Of a stretch of DNA of 21,454 nucleotides, positions 4,196 to 20,734 are shown in pieces (position 1 is the stretch's first letter; each line of letters starts with the position of its first letter). Below the pieces are notes generated by a model that saw only the letters and a list, made by a program, of their open reading frames with translations, was not told the DNA's origin and ran no database searches. The position numbers and the translations under genes were made by a program. This DNA comes from a virus. The DNA lies in the IMG/VR virus record IMGVR_UViG_3300045955_000189, positions 1 to 21,454 of that record; one strand, given 5' to 3'.

Positions 4196-6886
4196 CTATC
4201 GCCTCCAGCCCGGCTTGCGGCCGGTCGAGGCGACCGAGCGGCCGCCGATATACTGCGACAGCTTGCCGGCGATCGAGGCCGGGCTCTCCTGGGCGAGTGC
4301 CGCGATCGTCTGCCCGCCGGGCAGGTTGATGACGATCGGCGTGCCGCTTGGCCCCGCCGGCTCGGCGAACCCGCCGCCGGCGAGCGCCAGCGCCGGCTGT
4401 GGCGCCATCCCGGCGAAGCCGCCGCTGAGCCCGTCGACCAGCCCGCCGAGGTTGAAGCCGCGGAAAAAATCCTTCGGCAGGCTGAGCGAATTGATCGCGG
4501 CCATCAGCGCCGGCCCGTATTTCCTGACCGCCGCCGTGCGCATGACGAACTCGCCGTCGCTGAGCCAGGCGAGAATGGAATCGCTCGTCGCCGTTCCCGC
4601 GCCCCTCACCTGCCCGCCGCCGGCCAGGCCGCGCGCCGACGAGCTGCCGCCGCCGCCCGAGCTCGCCTGCGCCCTCAGCCGCGCCGCTTCGGCGGCAGCG
4701 CGCCTCAGCGCCGAGATGATGCGGGAGATCATCGCATCGATCGACGCCGCGATGCTCCCGACTTCCGTCCTGATCGCCGCGAAGCCGCTCGCGACCAGCG
4801 CCCGGATGCCGTCCATGATCTCGCCGATGCGGCTCGAAGCCTGCTCGAACGGCTCGACCAGCCTCGCCGCGAGCTCGCCGGCGCCCTCGATGTCGCCGGC
4901 CGCTTCCGTCGCCCGCGCGATCGCCGCGGCGATCGCATCGGCCGCGGCCGCCACCTCGCCGGTGGCCCCGGTGAACGCCTCGACCACGCCCGACACCAGC
5001 GAGCCGACCGTTTCGATGACGGCCGATATCGCGGCGCTCGCCACCGAGGAAATCGCGTTGAAGGCAGTGGTCGCCGCGCTCTCGATGGTGCCCCACACCG
5101 CCGAGCCTGCCGCCGAGATCGTCGCCCACACAGGCGCCAGCAGCGCCGCCGCGCCCTGGGCGGCCACCACGATGCCGTCCCATATGCCCATGGCGGCCGT
5201 CGAGATGGCGAGCCATACGCCCTCGCCCGCGGCCCTGATCTGGTCCCATGTCGGCAGCAATTGAGCGGCCAGGTCGGCCAGCCGCGCGATGACGCCCTGG
5301 ACGAACCCCTCGACGCCGAGAACCGCGCCGGCGAAGACCGCGGCCAGCCCCTCGAGCGCCAGCGCGACGGCATCGACGAAGAATTTTCCGACCGCCGCGC
5401 CGGCTTCCTGCATGGCGGCCCCGAACGCCGCGAAATTCTCCGCGGTGAACAGCGAGGCGATGAAGTCGAAGGCTTCCAGCGCCGCCGCCTCGATGTCGTC
5501 CCAGAAGATGACGATCGCCGCGCCCGCCGCCACGAGCCCCGCGACCAGCAGCGCCGGCCAGCCCACCAGTCCGGCGATGAGCCCTATGAACGTCGTCGCC
5601 CCTGATATCAGGATGCGGAAGAATGCCGTCGCGCCCGCGATCAGGCCCGAGCCGAACAGCGGCGCCAGCAGGGTTCCGATGAGCTGCAGCCCCGCGATGA
5701 CCACGCCGACGCCCGAGGTGAACAGCCTGAACACGCCGATGAGCTGCAGCAGCGCCGCCGTGATCAGCAGCTGGCCGCCGCTGATGTTGGTGCCGAACAC
5801 CGCGTTGATGCCGTCGGCGACGAATTGCGCGGCATCCCGCACCGCCCTGAACAGCGGCAGGATGATGCCGTTCACCACCGCCGCGACGTCGGTCCCGAAC
5901 TCGACGATCGCGTCGCGCCATTCGAGGATCCACGGCCGCGTGACACGCGCGTCGTTGCCGGTGAGCGCCGACACCAGGTCGCCGAGGAAACTCGCCGTCA
6001 GCTGCGCGGCGACGCGGCCGAGCTCGATGAGCGCGTCCCTGTTGCGCACTATGAAGTCGCGGAAGGCCTCCGCGCCGGCGAGTACGATCGGCGCGAACAG
6101 GAGCCCGATCTGCGCCCTGACCGCACGAATGGCGACGCCGACCTCGTCGAGCGCGTCGCCGAGCGCATCGCCCAGCCTGAACTGCTCCGGCGTGAACACG
6201 ATGCCGAGCCGCTCGGCCTGTCGCCCGAGCTCGCGCAAGCCGTCCGCACCCTGGTTGAGGAACGGCAGCAATTCGGTGCCCGACCTGCCGAACAGCCCGA
6301 TCGCGGCCGCCGCCTCGCGCGCGCCGGCCGGCATTCGCTGGAACGCCGTCGCCAGATCGCGGATGATGTCTTCCGTCGGTCTCAGTTGCCCCCTGGCGTC
6401 GAAGATGGTGACGCCGAGCTCGGAGAATTTTTTGAGCGCCTCCTCGGAGCCGCCCGCCGCCTCGTCGAGCGTCTTGTTGAGGCGGTTCATGCCGGCCTGG
6501 AAGGTCTCCAGGCTGACGTCGGCCTGTTCGGCCGCGAACGCCAGCCGGCCGTAGGCATCGATCTGCAGGCCGGTCTTCTCCGCCGCCTTGCCGGCGGCAT
6601 CGGCGGCTTCCGCGCCGCTCTTCGCCAGCTGGAACACCGCGACGCCGGCGCCGGTCGCCACCGTCGTCAACCCGGCGAACGCCAGCGCCACACGCCGCCC
6701 GACTGTCGCGAGATCGCTGCCGAAGGTCTTCAGCGACGCCCCGAACTTGGCGAGGTCGGCCTTGATCGCCGCGGCGCGGATCTGCTCGAAGGCCTTTTCG
6801 CCGGCTTCGCCGATCGCCTTGAGCTGATCCTCGATCTGCTTGCCGCCTTCCAGCGCGATGCGCTGGACGATCGGTTTGCGTGCCAT
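4196..6886 (-). CDS. Tail tape measure protein
   Basis: This 896-residue protein starts at ATG 6886 with GGAGA five bases upstream. It sets tail length, forms the tail lumen scaffold with the chaperones and is ejected at infection. Residues 1-100 are helical and Ala/Lys-rich (KQIEDQLKAIGEAGEKAF). A long hydrophobic stretch at about 370-460, in several segments, resembles membrane-insertion helices of tape measures. The C-terminal part has GGGQVRGAGTATSDSILAWL near residue 755, followed by SDGEFVMR, a typical tape measure C-terminal pattern. At about 1.5 angstroms per residue the tail would be roughly 130 nm (inference). The large open frames on the opposite strand here are GC-codon shadows. 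Confidence 0.92.
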   Translation of the reverse strand: MARKPIVQRIALEGGKQIEDQLKAIGEAGEKAFEQIRAAAIKADLAKFGASLKTFGSDLATVGRRVALAFAGLTTVATGAGVAVFQLAKSGAEAADAAGKAAEKTGLQIDAYGRLAFAAEQADVSLETFQAGMNRLNKTLDEAAGGSEEALKKFSELGVTIFDARGQLRPTEDIIRDLATAFQRMPAGAREAAAAIGLFGRSGTELLPFLNQGADGLRELGRQAERLGIVFTPEQFRLGDALGDALDEVGVAIRAVRAQIGLLFAPIVLAGAEAFRDFIVRNRDALIELGRVAAQLTASFLGDLVSALTGNDARVTRPWILEWRDAIVEFGTDVAAVVNGIILPLFRAVRDAAQFVADGINAVFGTNISGGQLLITAALLQLIGVFRLFTSGVGVVIAGLQLIGTLLAPLFGSGLIAGATAFFRILISGATTFIGLIAGLVGWPALLVAGLVAAGAAIVIFWDDIEAAALEAFDFIASLFTAENFAAFGAAMQEAGAAVGKFFVDAVALALEGLAAVFAGAVLGVEGFVQGVIARLADLAAQLLPTWDQIRAAGEGVWLAISTAAMGIWDGIVVAAQGAAALLAPVWATISAAGSAVWGTIESAATTAFNAISSVASAAISAVIETVGSLVSGVVEAFTGATGEVAAAADAIAAAIARATEAAGDIEGAGELAARLVEPFEQASSRIGEIMDGIRALVASGFAAIRTEVGSIAASIDAMISRIISALRRAAAEAARLRAQASSGGGGSSSARGLAGGGQVRGAGTATSDSILAWLSDGEFVMRTAAVRKYGPALMAAINSLSLPKDFFRGFNLGGLVDGLSGGFAGMAPQPALALAGGGFAEPAGPSGTPIVINLPGGQTIAALAQESPASIAGKLSQYIGGRSVASTGRKPGWRR

Positions 6887-8426: not shown

Positions 8427-8493
8427 AGGCAGTAGGCAGTAGGCAGTAGGCAATAGTCGTCTCCTACTGCCTAAGCCCTACTGCCTACTGCCT
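8427..8493. repeat. Palindrome with GGCAGTA micro-repeat arms (family D)
   Basis: The left arm (8427-8456) contains three AGGCAGT units and the right arm (8464-8493) the complementary CTACTGCCT units, with a seven-base loop and only a few mismatches over about 30 bases. It fills the gap between the major tail protein stop and the chaperone Shine-Dalgarno. Repeats of this kind are scattered in rhizobial genomes (recalled). Confidence 0.8.
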
Positions 8494-8498
8494 GATCA

Positions 8499-9026
8499 TC
8501 ACTCCGCGTCCGTCACCGTGATCGTGCCGAAGTTCGTCGAGCCGTCCGTGTAGGTGGTCGACAGCACTTCCGCCGTGATCTCGATCTGGCCCCACTCGTC
8601 GGAGATCAGGCTCAAGGACCCCGTCGGCGTGAACGACACGCTCGGCAGGTTCATCACCACCTGGTTGCCGACGTCGTTGGTGCCGGTGAAGACGATCGCG
8701 CCGGTGATCTCCGACTGCTCGAAGATGTCGAAGCTCTTGGTGCCGTCGGTGGCGGTGGCGACCTCGGAGCCGATCAGCAGCATCTGCAGGTTTTCGGCCG
8801 TGATCTCGTCGAGCACGATCCTCAGCGCCATCGACTTTTCGAGCACGATCGAGCGGTCCTTGGTGCGCACGCCGGAGCGCGAGGAGAAGTGATCGAGCTT
8901 CTCGATCGTCGGCGTCAGCTCGACCTCGGGCGCGTTGCCGAGATCGCGCTCGACGCCGCCGGTCGGCGTGAACTTCACGATGCCCTTGCCGATGAAATAG
9001 TTGAGCGTGTTGGGAGAAGCAGGCAT
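8499..9026 (-). CDS. Major tail (tube) protein
   Basis: This 175-residue protein starts at ATG 9026, with GGAAAGGG just upstream. It polymerises into the tail tube. The sequence has the usual signature of siphophage tube subunits: an N-terminal segment MPASPNTLNYFIGKGIVKF, a DLGNAPEVELTP turn, then LDHFSSRSGVRTKDRSIVLE, and beta-rich C-terminal repeats with a final ITVTDAE. The order tail terminator, tube protein, chaperones, tape measure is standard. No C-terminal Ig-like extension is present. No promoter is evident, although the 153-base gap upstream is one of the largest in the window. Confidence 0.9.
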   Translation of the reverse strand: MPASPNTLNYFIGKGIVKFTPTGGVERDLGNAPEVELTPTIEKLDHFSSRSGVRTKDRSIVLEKSMALRIVLDEITAENLQMLLIGSEVATATDGTKSFDIFEQSEITGAIVFTGTNDVGNQVVMNLPSVSFTPTGSLSLISDEWGQIEITAEVLSTTYTDGSTNFGTITVTDAE

Positions 9027-9076
9027 GGCCCTTTCCTTTCAGAGTTGCCCGCTACGCCGGGCGTTGCGATTAGCCT

Positions 9077-9154
9077 TCCTCGCCCCTTGTGGGAGAGGAT
9101 AGTAAGGCCCGGTGAGCGGCTTGCCGCGAACCGTTGGCCGCACTTGGTGAGGGG
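9077..9154 (+). repeat. Intergenic repeat, family B copy 1
   Basis: The plus strand reads CCTCGCCCCTTGTGGGAGAGG, then AGTAAGGCCC, a long hairpin (GGCCCGGT...GCGG / CCGC...ACCGTTGGCC) and CACTTGGTGAGGGG. Matching copies lie at 16758 and 20655. In this copy the hairpin stem has changed on both sides (GGT/ACC in place of GGCTC/GAGCC), which keeps pairing. Confidence 0.8.
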
Positions 9155-9179: not shown

Positions 9180-9638
9180 TTACGCCGTGACCTCTTCCAC
9201 GAGGCTCCCCGGACGCATCAGGTACCGGAACGCGAACGCCACGCCGATGCCGCCTTCCATGGACCTGCCGCGCTCGGCCACCATGTTCGAGCCGAGATAG
9301 CGCGCCGACCGCCCGTTTTCGGTCAGCGCCAGCAGCGCCGCATCCGACAGCACGGCCTTGATCAGCTTCGCCCTCAGCTCGTTGAGCCTGGTGCCGACTT
9401 CGGCCGCGCTCGAGGCCAGCCGGAACTGCACCTCCGGCGTCATCGTCACCCGCCGCGGCGCCGAGGCCGGCCTGCCTTCAGGGTCGTCGTCGGCGGCGAG
9501 CTCCTCGCCGTCGAGCAGCACGACCACGGGCAGCGCCGAATCGGCGAGCACCGTCTCGTTGCGCCTGGCATTCAGCGTCGCGTCGACACCGCCGGCGATC
9601 TCCAGCAGCCGCGCCAGTATCTCCTCGCGCGGATCCAT
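9180..9638 (-). CDS. Tail terminator-like (gpU-type) protein
   Basis: This 152-residue protein begins MDPREEILARLLEIAGGVD. ATG 9638 overlaps the upstream stop (TGATG), and GAAGG upstream makes it a better start than TTG 9641. An N-terminal helix is followed by PVVVLLDGEE and VTMTPEVQFRL beta strands, then a helix (GTRLNELRAKLIKAVL) and a C-terminal strand segment (GIGVAFAFRYL). This alpha/beta layout is typical of proteins that cap the tail tube and join it to the head. The call depends on fold pattern and on its place between head closure and tube genes. Confidence 0.7.
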   Translation of the reverse strand: MDPREEILARLLEIAGGVDATLNARRNETVLADSALPVVVLLDGEELAADDDPEGRPASAPRRVTMTPEVQFRLASSAAEVGTRLNELRAKLIKAVLSDAALLALTENGRSARYLGSNMVAERGRSMEGGIGVAFAFRYLMRPGSLVEEVTA

Positions 9639-9976
9639 CAAACCACCTTCTCGAGGATCAGCCGCACTTCGCCCTCGTCCTCGCCCGCCGGCGACGGCCG
9701 CATCTCATGGCTGGCGATCCGCCACGATCTGCCGTTGAACGCGATCGCCGCGCCGTCCAGGCTGGCAACCGCGACATCAGCCTCGTCGAGCTCGTAGACG
9801 CGCAAATCGGCCGCCGGCAGGATCGTCGCGACGCCCGGCCCGCTCAGCACCTCTATGCCGAACGTCTTGTCCACCGCCGTCAGCTCGATCTCGGTCGCCG
9901 CCGTATCGGCCAGCGTCAGCACCGCGTCGACGCCGAGCGCGCCGTAGATCGCGTCGTAATGCGCCCGCCAGTCCAT
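9638..9976 (-). CDS. Head closure / head-tail joining protein (gpFII-like)
   Basis: This 112-residue protein starts at ATG 9976, one base after the upstream stop (TAGGATG). It begins MDWRAHYDAIYGALGVDAVL and ends with FNGRSWRIASHEMRPSPAGE and GEVRLILEKVV. A small beta-barrel with a WRI...GE..LIL end is usual for FII-like neck proteins. In other phages this gene directly follows the capsid and connector genes. Here a six-gene carbohydrate cassette separates it from the decoration gene. Confidence 0.68.
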   Translation of the reverse strand: MDWRAHYDAIYGALGVDAVLTLADTAATEIELTAVDKTFGIEVLSGPGVATILPAADLRVYELDEADVAVASLDGAAIAFNGRSWRIASHEMRPSPAGEDEGEVRLILEKVV

Positions 9977-9977
9977 C

Positions 9978-10784
9978 CTATTGCAGCAGCCTCCACAACG
10001 TCCCGTCGACCAGCTCGCGCTCGTTGAACTGCGAATAGGCGAGCGACCTCAGCCACGGCTCGCGATCCGGATAGATCGGCTCCTCGATCCGCCCGATGTC
10101 GCAGCGGCCGACGAGCGCGGCCGCGCTCGACCGGTCGACGAACACCGGGCAGCCCATGATGACGGCTTCCACCGCCGCGCCCGATCCGTGCGTCACGAGG
10201 CAATGAGCGCCCTCCAGATCCCGGTGCAGCTTGCGCCCCGACCGCTGCATCTCCTTGTCACGAAGGACGATCGTCCGATCGGTGATTTCCTTCAGCCTCG
10301 CGACGGTCTTTTCCGTCCAGCTCTCGAGGCCGTGAAAGGCGCTGTAGGTCGGCGTCGGCTCGGCGACGACGACGTGTTTGCCGGTCCGCTTCCACGGCCA
10401 GACCGGCGTCGCCATCGACGTCCAGCGGTCGTCGGCGCAGTCGCGGATCCGCTGCATCTGGAACGCGCCGACGTGCCAGCGGTAGTAGCCGCCGTCGGTG
10501 CCCGGAGGCAGGTCGGTGGCGAAGATGCGCCTGACATAGCCCCTGTCCCAGTAGATGAACGTCCTGCCGCTCTGCCGCCATTTCATGACGAGATGCCTGA
10601 CTTCAGGCATGCAGCCGACGATCGGGATGATTGCGTCGGGCAGCCTGTCGAGCTCGCCGGCGTCTGTTTTGACCACCATGCCGCCGAGCTTCTCGATTTG
10701 CCGCGCGACCGTCTCGAACAGCACCTGCTTGAACTTCTTCAGCCCCGCCGGGACAAAGAAGGCGACCCGCCGCGGCTCGATCAT
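9978..10784 (-). CDS. Predicted GT-B-like glycosyltransferase, capsule-synthesis-like
   Basis: This 268-residue protein starts at ATG 10784, which overlaps the previous stop (ATGA). It has FIYWDRGYVRR (about residues 76-86), an HGSGAAVEAVIMGCPVFV motif (199-216) and a C-terminal LAYSQFNERELVDG. The His-Gly-Ser-Gly...Glu...Gly-x-Pro-Val pattern resembles the sugar-nucleotide-binding end of Kdo or capsule-type transferases. Proteins with this layout recur in phage and polysaccharide loci but have no assigned reaction that I know. It is last in the cassette, one base before the head closure gene. Donor and acceptor are unknown. No membrane segment is seen, so it should act in the cytoplasm. Confidence 0.65.
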   Translation of the reverse strand: MIEPRRVAFFVPAGLKKFKQVLFETVARQIEKLGGMVVKTDAGELDRLPDAIIPIVGCMPEVRHLVMKWRQSGRTFIYWDRGYVRRIFATDLPPGTDGGYYRWHVGAFQMQRIRDCADDRWTSMATPVWPWKRTGKHVVVAEPTPTYSAFHGLESWTEKTVARLKEITDRTIVLRDKEMQRSGRKLHRDLEGAHCLVTHGSGAAVEAVIMGCPVFVDRSSAAALVGRCDIGRIEEPIYPDREPWLRSLAYSQFNERELVDGTLWRLLQ

Positions 10785-11428
10785 CGGCACCAGTACTCGC
10801 GCACCCAGCTCAGATGCGTGTATTGGGACGGATCCCTGCGGCCGGGAAACGCCACCACGCGCGCCCCGCGCGGCAGCAGCTCGCCGCCGGGCCAGCCGCG
10901 CTGCTGGAATGCATAGACGCCCGTCTGCCGGCCGCATCTCCAGCCCGCCGCCCGCGAAAACTTGTGCCAGAACCAGCCCTGGTCGTCGGGGAACTCGAAA
11001 CGCGGGATCACGTCCAGCTTCGCCGGCGAGAAGTCGTGCCAGACGTCCGGCCTGTAGCCGGCGGTGAGCATCCACATCGAGCCGTTGTACGGGCACGGAT
11101 TCGCCGAGTTCGCGCCCTGCATGATGACGAACGGCTCCGGCCGGTCGAAGAGGCCGCCGAGCGGCCCCGTCACGATCAGGTCGAGATCGAGGCAGACGAT
11201 GCGGTCGCCCTCCCTGATCCCGAGAGCGCGCTGCCAGGACGGATCGAACGCCCTGAGCCGCGCGAAGCAACCCGGTATCCGGGTGAGATGCATGTCCTCC
11301 TGCGCCGGCCGGCAGACGAGGAAGCGATGGTCCTTCCCGAGGTGCCGCCCGACGCCGGCCGCGAGGCGCTCGACATAGACCGGCGGATATTTCTCGCCCC
11401 ATTGCCATGTCGTCACTACGAGCGCCAC
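10781..11428 (-). CDS. Glycosyltransferase, DxD type (GT-A-like)
   Basis: This 215-residue protein starts at GTG 11428, overlapping the end of the methyltransferase gene by 13 bases. The DLD motif (D81, D83) in VCLDLDLIVTG is the expected metal and nucleotide-sugar site. NGSMWML (115-121) and PDDQGWFW (147-154) fit the acceptor side of small GT-A enzymes seen in phage and rhizobial surface loci. The N-terminus (LVVTTWQWGEKYPP) resembles the opening strand of the fold. It lacks a signal peptide and membrane anchor. The sugar cannot be told from sequence. An initial Shine-Dalgarno is weak, so translation is likely coupled. Confidence 0.8.
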   Translation of the reverse strand: MALVVTTWQWGEKYPPVYVERLAAGVGRHLGKDHRFLVCRPAQEDMHLTRIPGCFARLRAFDPSWQRALGIREGDRIVCLDLDLIVTGPLGGLFDRPEPFVIMQGANSANPCPYNGSMWMLTAGYRPDVWHDFSPAKLDVIPRFEFPDDQGWFWHKFSRAAGWRCGRQTGVYAFQQRGWPGGELLPRGARVVAFPGRRDPSQYTHLSWVREYWCR

Positions 11429-11994
11429 AGGACACCGATGCCGTTGTGTCCGGTCTCGCGCCTGATCTCCAGGTGTTTTCGCCCTTCCCTCAGCTCATCC
11501 CACACTTTCGGGACATCGATCTTCAATTTGTGCGCCGGGAAATTCGCCGGCTCGACCCAGCCGATGTCGTGGAACGCGACGAGGCGGCCGAGCGGCCCGT
11601 AATTCGCCCAGTCCGCCCTGACGTAAGGCTCCGTATGGTTGGCGTCGATGAACACCGCGTCGAACGGCCCGAGCCGCGTCGCGAACGCGATCGCCTCCGG
11701 CGACGTCGAGTCGCCGAGAAAAAGATGCGCGTCGTAGCCCTTTTCGGCCAGGCGGGCGACGCAGGCCTCGAGCGGCGCCTGTGTCTCCTTGAACGAGCCG
11801 TCCCCGTGCGGCTGGTCGATCGACACGACCCGCGAGCCCCGAGGCATCGACCAGGCGACACGCCAGAGCGAGCCGCCGAACTTCGAGCCGATCTCCAGGT
11901 AGGAGCGGACGTTCTCATGCGCCAGCAGCTCGATGAACGAGGCGATCTCGTTCCCGTTCTGCAGCGCGGCCGTCTTGTATTTCGCCTTCTTCAA
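11416..11994 (-). CDS. Class I SAM-dependent methyltransferase (Methyltransf_24-like)
   Basis: This 192-residue protein starts at TTG 11994, fused to the previous stop as TTGA, with GAGG upstream; no nearby ATG in frame fits. Motif I is YLEIGSKFGGSLW (residues 32-44), an acidic residue follows at D60, and FDAVFIDANHTEPYVRADW (111-129) with AFHDIGW (140-146) is the typical second half of O-methyltransferases of the cephalosporin-hydroxylase-like group. Such enzymes commonly methylate sugar hydroxyls in polysaccharide loci. In this cassette it probably caps or decorates a glycan. The length is short for the family but complete. Confidence 0.83.
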   Translation of the reverse strand: MKKAKYKTAALQNGNEIASFIELLAHENVRSYLEIGSKFGGSLWRVAWSMPRGSRVVSIDQPHGDGSFKETQAPLEACVARLAEKGYDAHLFLGDSTSPEAIAFATRLGPFDAVFIDANHTEPYVRADWANYGPLGRLVAFHDIGWVEPANFPAHKLKIDVPKVWDELREGRKHLEIRRETGHNGIGVLWRS

Positions 11995-12755
11995 AGCCGC
12001 CTCATCGCTTCTTCGTAGACGACGTCCACCCTTATGTTCTCCATCGCTTGCCGGCAGTGCCTGCACGGGCTCGTCGAGCCGCAGAATTCCTTCGAGCCCG
12101 TCATGTTGGCGTGCGTTGAATAGCCGGTCACCTCGGGCGGGATGAAGCCGCCGAAGATGACCACGGCCGGGATGTTTACAGCCGCGGCGCCGTGATGCAG
12201 CCCGCCTTCCGGGCCGATGTAGAGCCTCGCGTTCGCCAGGATCGCCAGCGCGTCGCGGAAGCTCCCCGTGCTCACCGCCTCGACGCCGTCGAGGGCCTTT
12301 CCGGTCGCGAACTGGATCAGCCTGACGCCGCGCAGCCGCAGGTAGTTCGCGAGCTGCTGCCAGTTGCCGCGGCCCCAGTCCTTGTTGGCCGCTACCTTCT
12401 TCCATGCCGGCAAATTCGGCTCGATGACAACGTAGTCGCCGGCGACGCGGCGCGCGTGCTCGCGCTCGGCCTCCTCGAAAAACACCTCGCCGGGCACGGC
12501 CCTGAAATCGCGGTTCCATATCCAGCGGCCCCGCCCCGGCCGGTTGTAGATCCGGTGCCCCTTGTAGAACGGCACCCATTCCAGGTCGGTCGTCCGCTCC
12601 TCGCCCGGCCTCGCGATGTTCGGGTTGCCCCGGAATATCCCGGCGCTGTGCTGGTCCCACAGGATGCGCCGGCGGTCGCCGAAGGCGATCCGCTTGCCCC
12701 GCGCCGCGGCGCCGCGGGCGAGGCCCGTCGCCATGAGATTATCGCCCAGGCCCAT
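11991..12755 (-). CDS. Glycosyltransferase family 9 (heptosyltransferase-like)
   Basis: This 254-residue protein starts MGLGDNLMATGLARG at ATG 12755, with GGAAGG about seven bases upstream. The GLGDNLMATG loop at the N-terminus and GPEGGLHHGAAA (181-192) near the C-terminus are the standard substrate and ADP-sugar binding motifs of GT9 enzymes. A cysteine group, CGSTSPCRHC (225-234), is unusual and may bind metal, as it occurs in many phage and surface-sugar relatives. It is shorter than the usual 320-350 residue heptosyltransferases and lacks much of the N-terminal domain. Whether it uses heptose is unknown. Confidence 0.82.
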   Translation of the reverse strand: MGLGDNLMATGLARGAAARGKRIAFGDRRRILWDQHSAGIFRGNPNIARPGEERTTDLEWVPFYKGHRIYNRPGRGRWIWNRDFRAVPGEVFFEEAEREHARRVAGDYVVIEPNLPAWKKVAANKDWGRGNWQQLANYLRLRGVRLIQFATGKALDGVEAVSTGSFRDALAILANARLYIGPEGGLHHGAAAVNIPAVVIFGGFIPPEVTGYSTHANMTGSKEFCGSTSPCRHCRQAMENIRVDVVYEEAMRRL

Positions 12756-12760
12756 CTTAC

Positions 12761-12863
12761 GGCCTTCCCCGGGAGGCCGGGACCGCGACTGCGGTCAGCC
12801 GGTCGTCCGGCGCCCCCGCGGAGGGCCAGGTCACGAACCGAGCGCTGCGGCCCGTGAGCGAAA
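12761..12863 (+). repeat. Intergenic hairpin repeat, family A copy 3
   Basis: The plus strand has a GGCCT/AGGCC hairpin (12761-12778), GACCGC-GACT-GCGGTC (12781-12796), GCCGG-TCGT-CCGGC (about 12799-12812), then GGCGCCCCCGCGGAG and a GTGAGCGAAATCA end that overlaps the stop of the upstream glycosyltransferase. It is the only repeat inside the carbohydrate cassette, and it supplies the GGAAGG of the GT9 gene. Confidence 0.78.
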
Positions 12864-13571
12864 TCACGCCGCCCACCGCATCAGCTCGGCCCGCCATTCC
12901 TCGGCCCAGGGTGCGGCCTCGTATCCCGGCATGTCGGGCGTTCCGTCGGTGAAATGCACGATCGCCGGATCTATGCGCGGGTCGCTGTGGCCGACCAGGA
13001 AATTCCATTTCGGGTCGAGCCCGCCGATCTCGGAATCGTCGAGCCAGCAGAAGCGATGCAGGTCTCGGCCCGCCACGGCGTTGACCAGCGCCGGCGTCAG
13101 CGCCCGGTTCGCCTTGTGGCCGCAGTTGATCAGCATCACCGACGACCAGTTCTTGCGCGCGTAGGCGGTCTGCAGCTGGCCATCCATTTTGATGTCGTTG
13201 GCCGGCCGGTGGTCGTGCTTGACCACCATCACGGCCTTGTCCGGGTCGGCCTGGTCGAACAGCCGGTCGAGGTTCGTGCGCACCAGCATGTCGCAGTCCA
13301 TGAACAGCGCCCAGCCACCGCCGGCGAGGTGCGGCACCAGGAAGCGGCTGATCGCGAACTCCGTCGACATCGGCGCTTCCGAAATGTCGTCCCACAGCCT
13401 GCCGTCGCGGATCGACGTCGGCCTGTGATAGAGCCCGGCCGCCCTGAGCTCGGCGAGCCTGAGCCCGAAGGTTGGCACCGGCGCGATTCCATGCCTCCTC
13501 GCCGAATGGCGGGTGACGGCGAACCCCGCCGTCTCGCGTGGGTCGAAGCCTATGAAAACAGTCCGTTTCAT
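12864..13571 (-). CDS. Glycosyltransferase, DxD type (GT8-like)
   Basis: This 235-residue protein starts MKRTVFIGFDPRETAGF at ATG 13571. A GTG at 13598 with GAGG upstream would add nine residues and overlap the previous gene, so the start is not certain. The N-terminal strand and STEFAISRFLVPHL (69-82) lead to LFMDCDMLV with D92 and D94 as the metal-binding pair. KMDGQLQTAYARKNWSS (128-144), DLHRFCWLDD (170-179) and HFTDGTPDMPGY (206-217) are typical of a GT-A group found in phage and rhizobial glycan loci. No signal peptide is visible. The sugar donor is unknown. Confidence 0.82.
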   Translation of the reverse strand: MKRTVFIGFDPRETAGFAVTRHSARRHGIAPVPTFGLRLAELRAAGLYHRPTSIRDGRLWDDISEAPMSTEFAISRFLVPHLAGGGWALFMDCDMLVRTNLDRLFDQADPDKAVMVVKHDHRPANDIKMDGQLQTAYARKNWSSVMLINCGHKANRALTPALVNAVAGRDLHRFCWLDDSEIGGLDPKWNFLVGHSDPRIDPAIVHFTDGTPDMPGYEAAPWAEEWRAELMRWAA

Positions 13572-13578
13572 CGACGGC

Positions 13579-14205
13579 CTAGACCAGCTCTGCTTCACGC
13601 ACTGCCTCTTCGAAGCTCATTCTCGGCCATGCGTCGACCGCGCTCCCAGGGCTCGCGTTCACGATGCGCACCCCCATTTTCGCGGCCGACGGCGCCACCG
13701 CCCGGTATTCGGCGGCCTGCTCGGCCAGCGATTTCGCCTCGCCTCCCTTCGGCCATGGCCATTTCAGCCCGTGACTGTGCCGCGCACCGCCGGGCCCCAG
13801 CCTGGCGTCGACGCCGAGCAGCACGATCCGCGCCGCGCCGAGATGGATCGCCAGGTTGATCGCGCCGGTCGTCGACGTCCGCGCCAGCGCGACGCAGGTC
13901 CGGTCCGACGACATCTGCTTCGGCTTGACCTTCCTGACCTTCATGATCCGGGGGTCGCCGACTTCCATCGCGGTCGTCACCACCGTTCCGGCGAACTCCT
14001 CCGGGATGGACGGCCGCAGGTTGCGCTCGCGCCACCAGCGGCCGTCGGCGAAGAACAGCATGTCGGCCTTCGGCCAGTGCACCCAGGACGACTTGACGAC
14101 GATCACCCGCCGCCCGGCGAGAGGCGACAGGTCGCGGGGAAGCGACGGGCCGGAAGCGACGATGAAGACCGTCTCGCCCGGCCAGTCGCGCGGCACCGAC
14201 CACAA
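13579..14205 (-). CDS. DUF115 / MptE-like predicted glycan-modifying protein
   Basis: This protein of about 208 residues starts at TTG 14205, one base after the decoration gene stop; GTG 14196 is an alternative, and neither has a clear Shine-Dalgarno. VFIVASGPSLPRDL (13-26) holds the Gly-Pro-Ser-Leu loop, FFADGRWW lies at 51-58, and INLAIHLGAARIVLLGVD (116-133) and NASPGSAVDAWP (183-194) complete the pattern seen in DUF115-like proteins, some of which act in flagellin glycosylation, and in the similar nucleotide-sugar fold of GT42 sialyltransferases. I infer a glycosyltransferase-like role. It opens the cassette directly behind the capsid decoration gene. Confidence 0.72.
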   Translation of the reverse strand: MWSVPRDWPGETVFIVASGPSLPRDLSPLAGRRVIVVKSSWVHWPKADMLFFADGRWWRERNLRPSIPEEFAGTVVTTAMEVGDPRIMKVRKVKPKQMSSDRTCVALARTSTTGAINLAIHLGAARIVLLGVDARLGPGGARHSHGLKWPWPKGGEAKSLAEQAAEYRAVAPSAAKMGVRIVNASPGSAVDAWPRMSFEEAVREAELV

Positions 14206-14206
14206 C

Positions 14207-14569
14207 TCAGTTCAGCGCGCCGCCGCCGAGCAGGACGTCGCCGGTCGACGACGGGTTCGACGCGGCCGCATACGCCTTGCCGATCGCCACCAGGCCGGCC
14301 GTCGAGTCGACGTTGGTCGCCGCGCCGGTCGCCGTGTCCCAGTAGATCAGGTCGCCCTGCGTCCACGCCTGCGCCGAGGTCTTGGCCAGCCGCCACACGC
14401 CCGTGAGCGCGAGAGCGCCTTCCGCATCCTCGGCGATGTCGACGATCGCCACGCCGAAGATGTTGCCGGCCAGCACGCCGTCGCCGGCAGAAATCGCGCC
14501 GTCGCCCGCTGTGTTGATCGGGTTGTGATAGGTGAGCGTCTCACCATTGCCGAGAAAATTGGTAGCCAT
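14207..14569 (-). CDS. Capsid decoration protein, DUF2190 family
   Basis: This 120-residue protein starts at ATG 14569, with AAAGGAG six bases upstream. The sequence (MATNFLGNGETLTYHNPINT, then GDGVLAGNIFGVAIVD, WTQGDLIYWD and AIGKAYAAAS) is typical of DUF2190, small beta-rich proteins that stabilise or decorate the capsid. It lies immediately after the protease-capsid fusion, as usual. It ends GGGALN. Being the last head gene before the glycan cassette, it is an obvious candidate acceptor for glycosylation; this is an inference. Confidence 0.85.
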   Translation of the reverse strand: MATNFLGNGETLTYHNPINTAGDGAISAGDGVLAGNIFGVAIVDIAEDAEGALALTGVWRLAKTSAQAWTQGDLIYWDTATGAATNVDSTAGLVAIGKAYAAASNPSSTGDVLLGGGALN

Positions 14570-14613: not shown

Positions 14614-14678
14614 GGCCCGAAGGGCCGAGCCCGCGACTGCGGGCCGCCGGAAGTCCGGCGCCCCGCCGTGAGGCAGAA
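14614..14678 (+). repeat. Intergenic hairpin repeat, family A copy 4
   Basis: The plus strand has GGCCC-GAA-GGGCC (14614-14626), GCCCGC-GACT-GCGGGC (14629-14644) and GCCGG-AAGT-CCGGC, followed by GCCCCGCCGTGAGGCAG, which reaches the capsid gene stop. Loop bases GAA and GACT match copy 1, while the stem bases differ and remain paired. Confidence 0.8.
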
Positions 14679-16742
14679 CTATGCGCCCGTGGAATAGACC
14701 AGCCCGCGGAAGTCGAGCGCCTTGACGCCGGCGTCGATGCGGGCCTTGAACTCGACCCCGTCGACGTTCCAGCCGTCGCGCTGCTCGAGCGTCGGCTGGC
14801 TGACGCCGTTGAGATACGACACCTCGATCGTGTCGTGCGCGTTCGGGTTGGCGGCGAGATACCACTCCGCGGTGGAGTCGGCGTCGAGCCGCGCCTCGTC
14901 GACCACCTGCACCAGGTCACGGACATAGTTCGGTGCCCGCGTGTTGTTGGTGCCGGCCGCCGTCACCTCGAACTCGCTGGTGATCAGCTGCCGCGCCTTT
15001 CCCGCGAGCGTCGTCGGCACCAGCAGGAAGGCCGGGCGGATGTTGAGCGCCGCGGCGTGGCCGTCGGGATCCTGCTGCCGCGCCATCTTGGCCCGCGCCG
15101 CGTCGAGGTTGGCCGTCGTCAGCGTGCCGGTCGTGGTGTTGTCGTGGTCGGCATGGAACAGCGCCACGCCGTCGGCCATCGCCGGGTTGCCGGTGAGGAT
15201 CGCATAGACCAGATTGCCGATCGTGCGCCGCGCCGCGCGGCCCATCCGCGCCGGCACGCGGGTGAACACGCTGAGGTCGTCGTTGATGATCGCCTGGCGG
15301 GTGATGGCGAACATCTTGCCGTAGGTGGCGAGCTGCACCGTCTCGCCGCGGTCGCCGATCGTGCCGAACGTGTATTCGGCACCTTCCGGCACCTCGCCGA
15401 GCGACGGGAACAGGTTCAGGTCGACGCGCTTGGTCGCCTTGAAGTCGGTGAGCGTGCCCGACGCCGTCCACAGCGGGAAGGTCTCCTCGGCCTCCATGTA
15501 GCCCTTCAGCATCGACTTGTTGGCGACGTTCGCCAGCACCTCGACGAAATCGGACGTCGAATGCATGCCGGCCGCCATGAACGGCCGCATGCCGAGCGCA
15601 GCACCCACCATCACCATCGGGTCGCCGGTGGTGAGCTTGATGCCGGCCTTCTCCAGGCTCATGCGGGCGATCTCGCGCAGGCTCATCGCAGAGAACTCGT
15701 TGACCTCGCCGCCCGAGAGGCCGGCCTTCGACATCAGCGACTTCTCGACGCCCTGCCTGAAGCGGTCGCGCTCGTCGGCCGCCACGGTCGCGACCGGCCG
15801 CGTCGGCGAGCCGGTATCGCCGGCAGCGAATGCGTCGATCACCAGGTCGCGGGCCTTGTCGAGGCTGCCGGCGGCCGAAGCGATGATCTTCTGCGTCTCG
15901 TCGAAGGACATCTTCGCGCGGCCGCACATCTCGTAGATCTTCACGGTCACGGCGTCGGCGCCGAGGCCGGGAAGCGCGGCAACCGGTGCCGGTTCGGGCT
16001 GCGGGGAAGCAGGGGTCGGGTTGGCGGGCTGGTTGGGGTCCGCCGGAGCAGCATTCCTGGACATGATTGTCCCTTTCGGTTCGAGTGCATCGAGCGGTGC
16101 GGACGCAACCGCCACCATCGGCAGGCCGCTGGCCTTCCGATCCCTGGCCGACGCAACAAGGTGCGCCGGAGCATTCCTGTAGGTGCCGTAGTCGAAGGTC
16201 GCGTCGGCCGTCGCCGCGTCCTTCGCCTCGTCGACCGTGGTCGCGAAACCCTTCTCGACCGCCTGTTTCGGCGTCAGCCAGGTTTCGGCCTTCATCATCT
16301 TGCGGATCTCGGCCTCGCCGCGGCCGCTGCGGTCGGCATAGACCTCGGCGTAGACGCCGCCCATCGTCTCCAGCGTGTCGGCGGTGCGCCGGTGCTCGTC
16401 GGCCGTGCCGAGCGTGATCCCGGCCGGCTCGTGGATCATCATCAGCGAGCCGAGCGGCATGACGATCGTGTCGCCGGCCATCGCGATCAGCGACGCCGCC
16501 GATGCGGCAAGACCGTCGATCGTCACCGTGACGGCGCCGTCGTGACGCTTCAGCGCGTTGTAGATCGCCGCGCCGTCGGTCGCGATGCCGCCGGCCGAAT
16601 TGAGGCGAACCGTGATGTCGCCCTCCATGCCAGCCAGCGCCTCCACCACCTGGTCGGCGGTGAAGCCGGCCCCCTCCCAGAAATCGTGGAAGCCGAGCGG
16701 CCCGTAGAGCACGAGCTCGCCGTCAACGATCAGGTTTTGCAT
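14679..16742 (-). CDS. ClpP-like prohead protease / Mu-like major capsid protein fusion
   Basis: This 687-residue polyprotein starts at ATG 16742, with AAAAAGGAG six bases upstream; a longer frame to 16811 has no support. Residues 1-200 form an S14 ClpP-like maturation protease: NSAGG (48-52) is the oxyanion loop, S81 in GLAASAAS the nucleophile and H104 in MIHEP the base. A Pro/Ala/Asn-rich linker (about 227-260) and a helical scaffold-like region follow. The capsid part occupies roughly residues 340-687 (KGYMEAEETFPLWTASG; ALFHADHDN) and is Mu gpT-like. Such fusions are known. An in-frame ATG at 16064 with AAAGGGA upstream could make a separate 461-residue capsid precursor. Confidence 0.93.
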   Translation of the reverse strand: MQNLIVDGELVLYGPLGFHDFWEGAGFTADQVVEALAGMEGDITVRLNSAGGIATDGAAIYNALKRHDGAVTVTIDGLAASAASLIAMAGDTIVMPLGSLMMIHEPAGITLGTADEHRRTADTLETMGGVYAEVYADRSGRGEAEIRKMMKAETWLTPKQAVEKGFATTVDEAKDAATADATFDYGTYRNAPAHLVASARDRKASGLPMVAVASAPLDALEPKGTIMSRNAAPADPNQPANPTPASPQPEPAPVAALPGLGADAVTVKIYEMCGRAKMSFDETQKIIASAAGSLDKARDLVIDAFAAGDTGSPTRPVATVAADERDRFRQGVEKSLMSKAGLSGGEVNEFSAMSLREIARMSLEKAGIKLTTGDPMVMVGAALGMRPFMAAGMHSTSDFVEVLANVANKSMLKGYMEAEETFPLWTASGTLTDFKATKRVDLNLFPSLGEVPEGAEYTFGTIGDRGETVQLATYGKMFAITRQAIINDDLSVFTRVPARMGRAARRTIGNLVYAILTGNPAMADGVALFHADHDNTTTGTLTTANLDAARAKMARQQDPDGHAAALNIRPAFLLVPTTLAGKARQLITSEFEVTAAGTNNTRAPNYVRDLVQVVDEARLDADSTAEWYLAANPNAHDTIEVSYLNGVSQPTLEQRDGWNVDGVEFKARIDAGVKALDFRGLVYSTGA

Positions 16743-16757: not shown

Positions 16758-16857
16758 CTCGCCCCTTGCGGGAGATGCGGACGATGGCAAGCCATCGCCG
16801 CGGGATAGCAAGGCCCGGCTCGCGGCCCTCCGCGAGCCGCTGGCCGCGCCTGGTGGT
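16758..16857 (+). repeat. Intergenic repeat, family B copy 2
   Basis: CTCGCCCCTTGCGGGAGATG begins the unit. An inserted CGATGGCAAGCCATCG hairpin follows, then GGCCCGGCTCGCG...CGCGAGCCGCTGGCC and a GCCTGGTGG end that touches the portal gene stop. It has the same orientation as the copies at 9077 and 20655. It fills the gap between portal and protease-capsid genes. Confidence 0.8.
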
Positions 16858-20634: not shown

Positions 20635-20654
20635 CAAAGCCCTTCGCGGGTTTC

Positions 20655-20734
20655 TTCCTCGCCCCTTGTGGGAGAGGACAGTAAGGCCCGGCTCGCGACC
20701 TTCCGCGAGCCGTCGGCCGCACTTGGTGAGGGGG
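20655..20734 (+). repeat. Intergenic repeat, family B copy 3
   Basis: TTCCTCGCCCCTTGTGGGAG opens the unit, followed by AGTAAGGCCCGG, the stem GGCTCGCG...CGCGAGCC, and CACTTGGTGAGGGGG. It is nearly identical to the copy at 9077 at its two ends and differs in the middle stem. It fills the gap between small and large terminase genes. Confidence 0.82.

Follow-up and report, generated by a model that had tools for sequence, protein, structure and literature searches.

Organization of the locus

The window, which is the whole stretch of DNA that we analysed, is a 21,454-base IMG/VR fragment within which lysogeny and prophage edges are not visible, and the hosts of the phage are soil bacteria related to Mesorhizobium. 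Six genes for soluble enzymes, denoted g1 to g6, run from 14205 to 9978 on the minus strand; five of the products are sugar transferases and one is a methyltransferase. The cassette is bounded on one side by the cement gene DUF2190 and on the other by a gene presumed to encode head closure, and the features of the region are listed below in gene order.

14679..16742, minus strand: fusion of a head protease with the major capsid protein, assigned from position and from the ClpP-like N-terminus and capsid-like C-terminus of the translation
14207..14569, minus strand: DUF2190 / Phage_cement_2 head decoration protein (Pfam 3.6e-23; phrog_122)
13579..14205, minus strand: g1, the leading cassette gene, 208 aa, TTG start, transferase of Maf/DUF115-like and GT42-like type
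12864..13571, minus strand: g2, 235 aa, GT-A-type glycosyltransferase with an invariant DxD (D92, D94)
12763..12871, no strand assigned: dispersed intergenic repeat, mainly between g2 and g3
11991..12755, minus strand: g3, 254 aa, GT9 (ADP-heptose type) glycosyltransferase
11416..11994, minus strand: g4, 192 aa, TTG start, SAM-dependent O-methyltransferase-like
10781..11428, minus strand: g5, 215 aa, GT-A-type glycosyltransferase with an invariant DLD (D81, D83)
9978..10784, minus strand: g6, 268 aa, glycosyltransferase of the GT-B fold, structurally closest to the KpsC/WbbB Kdo transferases
9638..9976, minus strand: presumed head-closure protein, its position conserved in relatives
8499..9026, minus strand: major tail protein with an Ig-like domain (phrog_807, 2.7e-34), a candidate acceptor

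A sequence-only reading of the window had described this series of six genes following DUF2190, and direct reading of the open reading frames and junctions confirmed it. The TTG start of g1 lies one base past the DUF2190 stop, g3 and g4 overlap at TTGA, g4 and g5 by 13 bases and g5 and g6 at ATGA, and one base separates the end of g6 from the next gene at 9976. The sole junction that is not tight is the 108-base spacer between g2 and g3, which contains the dispersed repeat; related copies of the repeat occur in two Mesorhizobium genomes. The product of 9638..9976 had no family match among Pfam and PHROG profiles and is presumed from its position to be a head-closure protein. The fused protease/capsid gene matched the D3 head protease in part, the portal was identified in the window (phrog_21, 6e-97), and g2 to g6 have the same GC3 as the virion genes on either side.

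Predicted enzymes of the cassette

The g1 protein matched phrog_4603 (2.8e-28), while its score against MptE-like DUF115 (PF01973) was 22.9 bits, under the Pfam gathering cut-off of 34.6; we therefore term it Maf-like rather than Maf. The AF2 model of g1 (pLDDT 94.7) predicts a Maf-like fold, with Maf 5mu5 as its best PDB match (Z 16.1, rmsd 3.1, 183 of 208 residues) and the GT42 enzyme CstII second at a Z of 12.0. The fold is common to Maf and g1 over the 183 residues, whereas Maf, at 632 residues, is a much longer chain, is 14% identical and has flagellin as its acceptor. A Maf enzyme has been reported to transfer Neu5Ac and Kdo onto Ser/Thr of flagellin (PMC11339370).

Among the remaining enzymes, g2 matched phrog_28018 (3.5e-57) and Pfam GT8 only at 0.021. 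The assignment of g3 draws on Pfam GT9 (PF01075; 2.3e-8, 34.1 bits, over the gathering cut-off of 22) and on a PDB profile match to heptosyltransferase II 1psw (1.2e-6), and HldE homologues, for ADP-heptose, are present in the host genomes. Methyltransf_24 matched g4 over the Pfam cut-off (4.3e-8), as did O-methyltransferases in the PDB (8.5e-6). The matches of g5 were to phrog_1962 glycosyltransferase (9.7e-6) and, by PDB profile, to Skp1 galactosyltransferase 6mw5 (0.0022) and glycogenin (0.28); a profile comparison of g5 with g2 was not significant by probability. None of the g1 to g6 proteins has a convincing membrane segment (maximum KD19 1.68), leaving the cassette without a membrane protein or flippase, and GtrA flippase was absent from all seven records searched for it.

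For g6, the family match was weak (DUF6716 putative glycosyltransferase, 0.0037) and a g6 profile found no match among PDB sequences. Its AF2 model (pLDDT 95.0) matched 6mgc in Foldseek at 1.2e-5 and aligned with WbbB and KpsC at Z 10.3-11.5 over 224-238 residues. The g6 protein shares the GT-B fold of these retaining Kdo transferases but does not conserve the catalytic Asp that they carry after the first strand of the C-terminal domain. In KpsC this residue, D160 in chain numbering, sits in DQTFND, and the g6 consensus at the corresponding loop is AxPxPxY with an invariant Tyr147 and no conserved Asp, in a register set by secondary structure rather than by residue-level superposition. With the catalytic Asp absent, we do not claim that g6 is a Kdo transferase. 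We also rejected the invariant D80-R81-G82 of g6 as the counterpart of the KpsC nucleophile: although a profile alignment pairs this DRG with the EDGFxRS motif of KpsC at a non-significant E of 0.07, D160 belongs to DQTFND, not to EDGFxRS.

Recurrence of the cassette in other phages

Co-occurrence was determined with g6 as the anchor, in 30 non-redundant loci that extend 6.5 kb or more upstream. In this sample g5 was present at 29 loci, g3 at 28, g1 at 27, g4 at 24 and g2 at 23, and the exact order g1 to g6 was found in 14 of 52 loci. Loci selected independently keep both the gene set and its order, so the arrangement is more than chance. At least three head/neck arrangements that are unrelated to one another carry the cassette, as do Mesorhizobium prophages, and it lies among virion genes wherever the surroundings are readable. 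The window and L149 read MCP-DUF2190-cassette-head closure, L063, L094 and L095 read MCP-portal-cassette-neck/tail, and L086, L073 and the Mesorhizobium prophages L151 and L152 (the latter in Mesorhizobium jarvisii LMG 28313) read TerL-MCP-115aa-cassette-portal. The siting in relatives supports the claim of the sequence-only reading that a multi-enzyme glycan cassette lies within the late virion genes of phages with rhizobial-type hosts. Homologues confined to independent morons at prophage edges, which would have spoken against that claim, were looked for and not found.

The same reading had described the cassette as inserted into a conserved head-to-neck order, but a one-off insertion it is not. 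Among phages of the window's backbone type (W-type), the slot may contain no glycosyltransferase (L183), g1 alone (L180) or the full six genes (L096). Sequence comparison identifies the cassette as a conserved, mobile module and not a private insertion. None of 50,697 phage-collection records matched all six genes, with Caulobacter jumbo phages reaching four, and no plasmid among those searched carried it. Beyond the reference genome there were no strong g6 matches (1/385 genomes of the class and 1/398 of the phylum, with at most six candidates scored each), and at a looser threshold g6 was found in 7 of 146 genomes of a genus-level sample.

Behavior of g1 and of g2 to g6

Comparing identities across backbones, the window g1 is about 60% identical to that of W-type L096 and 32% to that of type-A L006. 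The other genes are 72% (g2), 61% (g3), 52% (g4), 62% (g5) and 66% (g6) identical between the window and L006, and values within the W type are similar. From these identities we infer that g2 to g6 have been exchanged: g1 stays with the phage backbone, and g2 to g6 are as similar across backbones as within them. In the g1 tree, placing the window g1 with type A was rejected (p 1.6e-8). For g2 (p 0.27) and g6 (p 0.125), separate AU tests left W-type monophyly unrejected, which counts against the exchange. The backbone tracking of g1 could also be mere linkage.

Comparison with known systems

The closest precedent is the late-operon methyltransferase/glycosyltransferase cassette of mycobacteriophage Corndog (cluster O), in which gp35-gp38 are described as an O-methyltransferase and three transferases among virion genes. 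According to the descriptions available, infected cells were found to contain these enzymes, for which a role in capsid modification was proposed, and glycosylated proteins have been reported for Che8, Corndog and Myrna (Freeman et al. 2023, via citing papers). Both Corndog and the window combine an O-methyltransferase with several glycosyltransferases amid head genes, in the window inside the virion structural operon. The Corndog cassette differs in its actinobacterial hosts, in having four genes and, as far as these descriptions go, in lacking a Maf-like initiator or GT9. No mycobacteriophage was among the matches listed by tblastn with g1 to g6.

Homologues of g1, g6, g2 and g3 and a methyltransferase lie in series in Caulobacter phage CcrColossus (gp126-gp131) and its relatives, and we know of no tested function for this cassette. 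CcrColossus is a jumbo phage, its cassette lies between tail and lysis genes rather than beside the capsid, which counts against a virion role, identities are 29-41%, and homologues of g4 and g5 were not found in cassettes of this type. The sequence-only reading knew of no described six-component system of this make-up, and while this stands in the 50,697-record collection, the Corndog and Caulobacter cassettes are close precedents. In the tailed phage Tetraselmis viridis virus S20, a run of glycosyltransferase, methyltransferase and g1-type genes lies between head genes and the head closure Hc1, with two g1 copies and a g5 homologue but no g3 or g6 homologue found. In Pseudomonas phage D3, orf7 is a g1 homologue between the major head protein and the head-tail adaptor; no other cassette gene was detected there, and the O-antigen-modifying genes lie elsewhere, near attP. 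A gtr-type seroconversion cluster has a GtrA flippase or another membrane protein, which the g1 to g6 cassette lacks, and occupies a lysogeny-expressed position near attP. The window being a fragment, position can be read in its relatives, whose cassettes lie among late genes.

Proposed function and alternatives

Judging from gene content and siting, the cassette is probably a horizontally mobile virion-glycosylation module that would be expressed with the late head and tail genes. In the mechanism that we propose, g1 would act in the cytoplasm as Maf does on flagellin, linking a first sugar (Kdo taken from host CMP-Kdo is a possibility) to Ser/Thr residues of a virion protein present in many copies. 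The chain would be lengthened by g2, g3, g5 and g6 with host nucleotide sugars (ADP-heptose for g3 and UDP-hexoses for the DxD enzymes) and O-methylated by g4, and the glycan would probably alter adsorption to hosts or debris, or shield the particle. By recognising a phage-specific acceptor, g1 would remain with the backbone, while the extension genes would be traded between phages. As a full account this is tentative: a Maf-like enzyme may take a CMP-ulosonic acid of the host, CMP-Kdo for instance, to start O-glycosylation on a tail or head protein, a swappable multi-enzyme module may build an O-methylated oligosaccharide on it, and phages of Gram-negative Alphaproteobacteria may thereby have adapted a flagellin-type glycosylation system to virions and exchanged it even where they are unrelated.

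To our knowledge, virion glycosylation has been shown chiefly in mycobacteriophages. A conserved six-enzyme module moving between unrelated Alphaproteobacteria phages would, if real, make it a general strategy and offer a tractable system for protein O-glycosylation whose initiating enzyme is small; the role of virion glycans would be directly testable in lysogens differing only by the cassette.

The main rival is a late remodeling of the host LPS core by these enzymes, which would free virions from debris or exclude co-infecting phages. GT9, GT8-like, GT42-like and Kdo-transferase-fold enzymes are LPS-core or capsule families, Pelagibacter phage Mosig carries g2 and g6 homologues, and the authors of the pelagimyophage study interpret such genes as host-LPS modifiers (PMC7029224). 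We consider this possible but rather unlikely, as the cassette sits among virion genes and not at a lysogeny-expressed position, the best fold match of g1 is a protein O-glycosyltransferase, g1 tracks the phage backbone, and phage D3 keeps its O-antigen genes separate from its g1 homologue. The Maf-like fold of g1 would also suit another target, in that g1 and the extension enzymes could glycosylate flagellin, pilin or a different surface protein of the host and so block superinfection; the late virion-operon position and the variation of g1 with the backbone argue against this, no host-targeting feature was seen, and we regard it as unlikely.

Glycosylation of hypermodified phage DNA would have a parallel in the known DNA-modifying phage glycosyltransferases (through a reference cited in PMC12619734), but a thymidylate-synthase/hydroxymethylase-type gene was present in only one of seven records, some of them fragments, and the siting among virion genes makes this explanation very improbable. 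Scarcely more credible is the view that the cassette arose by accident or is a decaying moron and now serves no function: enzyme content does differ between relatives, yet open frames, invariant catalytic-type residues and gene order are all kept in divergent phages.

For virion glycosylation, the sequence-only reading had named capsid, decoration and tail proteins as candidate acceptors. DUF2190 is probably not the only acceptor, since g1 retains 58-60% identity in phages that have another head type and in which DUF2190 was not detected (L096, L011, L170-L173 and L175-L177). A protein common to both head types would be the more likely acceptor, for example the major tail protein, which is common to the phages that define the backbone type of the window.

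Organization and conservation of the cassette

The glycan cassette of the window is a real, conserved feature. On the minus strand, from 14205 to 9978, genes g1 to g6 are flanked by the gene of the cement protein DUF2190 and by a presumed head-closure gene. The junctions described in the sequence-only reading proved exact, with TTGA at g3/g4, a 13-base overlap at g4/g5, ATGA at g5/g6 and one base before the next gene; the sole loose junction, g2/g3, contains a dispersed intergenic repeat. In GC3, g2-g6 match the virion genes on either side. The window itself is a fragment of an IMG/VR virus without readable prophage edges.

When IMG/VR was scanned with g2, g6, g4 and g1 as queries, the loci recovered had the cassette in common with the window, but in many of them no shared head or tail gene could be detected. 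Removal of near-copies left 52 loci with full g6, of which 14 had the exact g1-g6 order. Of the 52, 30 extended 6.5 kb or more upstream of g6; in these we found g5 in 29, g3 in 28, g1 in 27, g4 in 24 and g2 in 23; all six genes were present in 17, and g1 held the first position in 26. Bacterial contigs with g6 came from Mesorhizobium (two), Bradyrhizobium, Phenylobacterium and a Hyphomonadaceae MAG. At L161 and L162, in two genomes of the genus Mesorhizobium, the g6 homologue was broken across two frames; at L164 and L165, likewise in two genomes of that genus, a g6-like domain was part of open frames 1079 and 1106 aa long. At L163, L168, L040, L044 and L039, g6-like genes stood in tandem runs beside homologues of CcrColossus gp127 and may represent a second kind of glycan cassette.

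Enzyme identities and proposed mechanism

g1 matched phrog_4603, whose family name is alpha-2,3-sialyltransferase; its match to Pfam MptE-like/DUF115 was weak. The top structural match of its AlphaFold model (pLDDT 94.7) was a Maf flagellin glycosyltransferase (Z 16.1, 183/208 residues), followed by GT42 sialyltransferases (Z ~12), and a profile search of PDB sequences matched CstII at 2e-4. Both g2 and g5, with invariant DxD motifs, are GT-A-type enzymes, while g3 is a GT9 enzyme whose closest solved structures are heptosyltransferases. g4 is a SAM enzyme of O-methyltransferase-like type. g6, as modeled (pLDDT 95.0), is a GT-B enzyme with the Kdo transferases KpsC and WbbB as closest folds; because the aspartate corresponding to KpsC D160 is not conserved, we assign it no donor. 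No convincing membrane segment was found in any of the six proteins.

By analogy with Maf on flagellin, g1 would initiate a glycan on a virion protein, ADP-heptose may be the donor for g3, and the chain would be O-methylated by g4; we infer all of these biochemical steps. No nucleotide-sugar synthesis gene was recognised within the cassette, which therefore agrees with donors from the host. The donor Kdo is generally made by Gram-negative hosts, and HldE homologues, for ADP-heptose, were found in all four host genomes examined. A Maf enzyme was reported to use CMP-Neu5Ac and CMP-Kdo, modifying surface Ser/Thr (PMC11339370).

Phage backbones, acceptor and alternative functions

The cassette occupied several positions among virion genes.

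Gene order around the cassette
W-type (the window's backbone): capsid, DUF2190, cassette, head closure, tail
Type A (L086, L073, Mesorhizobium prophages L151 and L152): TerL, capsid, 115-aa gene, cassette, portal
Third type (L063, L094, L095): portal, then cassette
Contig L104: cassette directly ahead of neck and tail genes

Immediately upstream of the cassette in L104, 2151-5228 encodes a 1025-aa protein with repeated 'PVNQxDWPLP' motifs and no PHROG match.

When loci were instead chosen by their major tail protein, 14 W-type relatives were obtained. Ten (L170-L179) carried g1 with additional cassette-type genes, L182 had g1 in two copies and L180 had g1 without other cassette genes; in L183 the slot held a 210-aa protein without a match to cassette profiles, and L181 had a different head and no cassette. 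The head type with DUF2190 comprised the window, L149, L150, L174, L178 and L179; in L096, L011, L170-L173 and L175-L177 the head had a separate capsid protein and DUF2190 was not detected. Since g1 of the latter phages is 58-60% identical to that of the window, DUF2190 is probably not the sole acceptor; a protein common to both head types, for example the major tail protein, would fit better. Among W-type phages, g1 distance correlated similarly with neck, tail and portal distances, so this test does not single out an acceptor.

We consider virion glycosylation the best explanation of the cassette, and a somewhat probable one. Its strongest rival is modification of the LPS core: LPS cores are built by the same enzyme families, and such modification is the published interpretation of pelagimyophage glycosyltransferases (PMC7029224). 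Against it stand the siting of the cassette in the virion operon on several backbones, the Maf-like fold predicted for g1, and phage D3, whose O-antigen acetylase, iap and wzy-beta lie near attP, apart from a g1 homologue between capsid and head-tail adaptor. Glycosylation of host appendages or of DNA seems less likely.

Inheritance of g1 and of g2-g6

The window's g1 is ~60% identical to that of W-type L096 versus 32% to that of type-A L006, and 14 W-type rows formed a single, strongly supported clade in the g1 tree. Grouping the window's g1 with type A was rejected (p 1.6e-8). For g2-g6, identities to L096 resembled those to L006 (g2 72%, g3 61%, g4 52%, g5 62%, g6 66%), and the g3 tree placed the window among type-A cassettes. 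Because W-type monophyly was not rejected by the topology test for g2 or g6, the putative exchange of the extension genes has the support of the identities but not topological proof.

Comparison with known phage cassettes

Although phage glycan cassettes as such are already known, this one differs in make-up. In its portal-protease interval, mycobacteriophage Corndog carries an O-methyltransferase, two glycosyltransferases and one N-acetylglucosaminyltransferase. Its authors suggested capsid modification and recorded these enzymes in infected cells, whereas the list of proteins from purified virions did not include them (PMC4351075). Later reports describe glycosylated proteins of Che8, Corndog and Myrna (PMC12363180; PMC12619734). 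Caulobacter phages have homologues of g1, g6, g2 and g3 plus a methyltransferase, and S20 has a long cassette at the same head position. None of 50,697 phage records matched all six genes, and g4 matched only two of them, from uncultured phages, unannotated and at 27%.

Dispersed repeats and other features

539-647, 1857-1909, 12763-12871 (between g2 and g3), 14631-14683: repeat family 1, dispersed, mostly at gene junctions
9075-9154, 16803-16855, 20654-20733: repeat family 2, dispersed, ~53-80 nt, at gene junctions
4212-4305: tRNA-Ser(cga) called by ARAGORN
8427-8493: palindrome of AGGCAGTAGGC units

Copies related to family 1 (75-84% identity) occurred in two Mesorhizobium genomes and were absent from the one Bradyrhizobium and one Phenylobacterium genome searched, hinting at a Mesorhizobium-like host; family 2 matched none of the four host genomes searched. 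The tRNA call, within the long minus-strand ORF 4196-6886 at the tape-measure position, is probably spurious. The palindrome is intergenic, with the major tail protein gene on one side and the next tail gene on the other.
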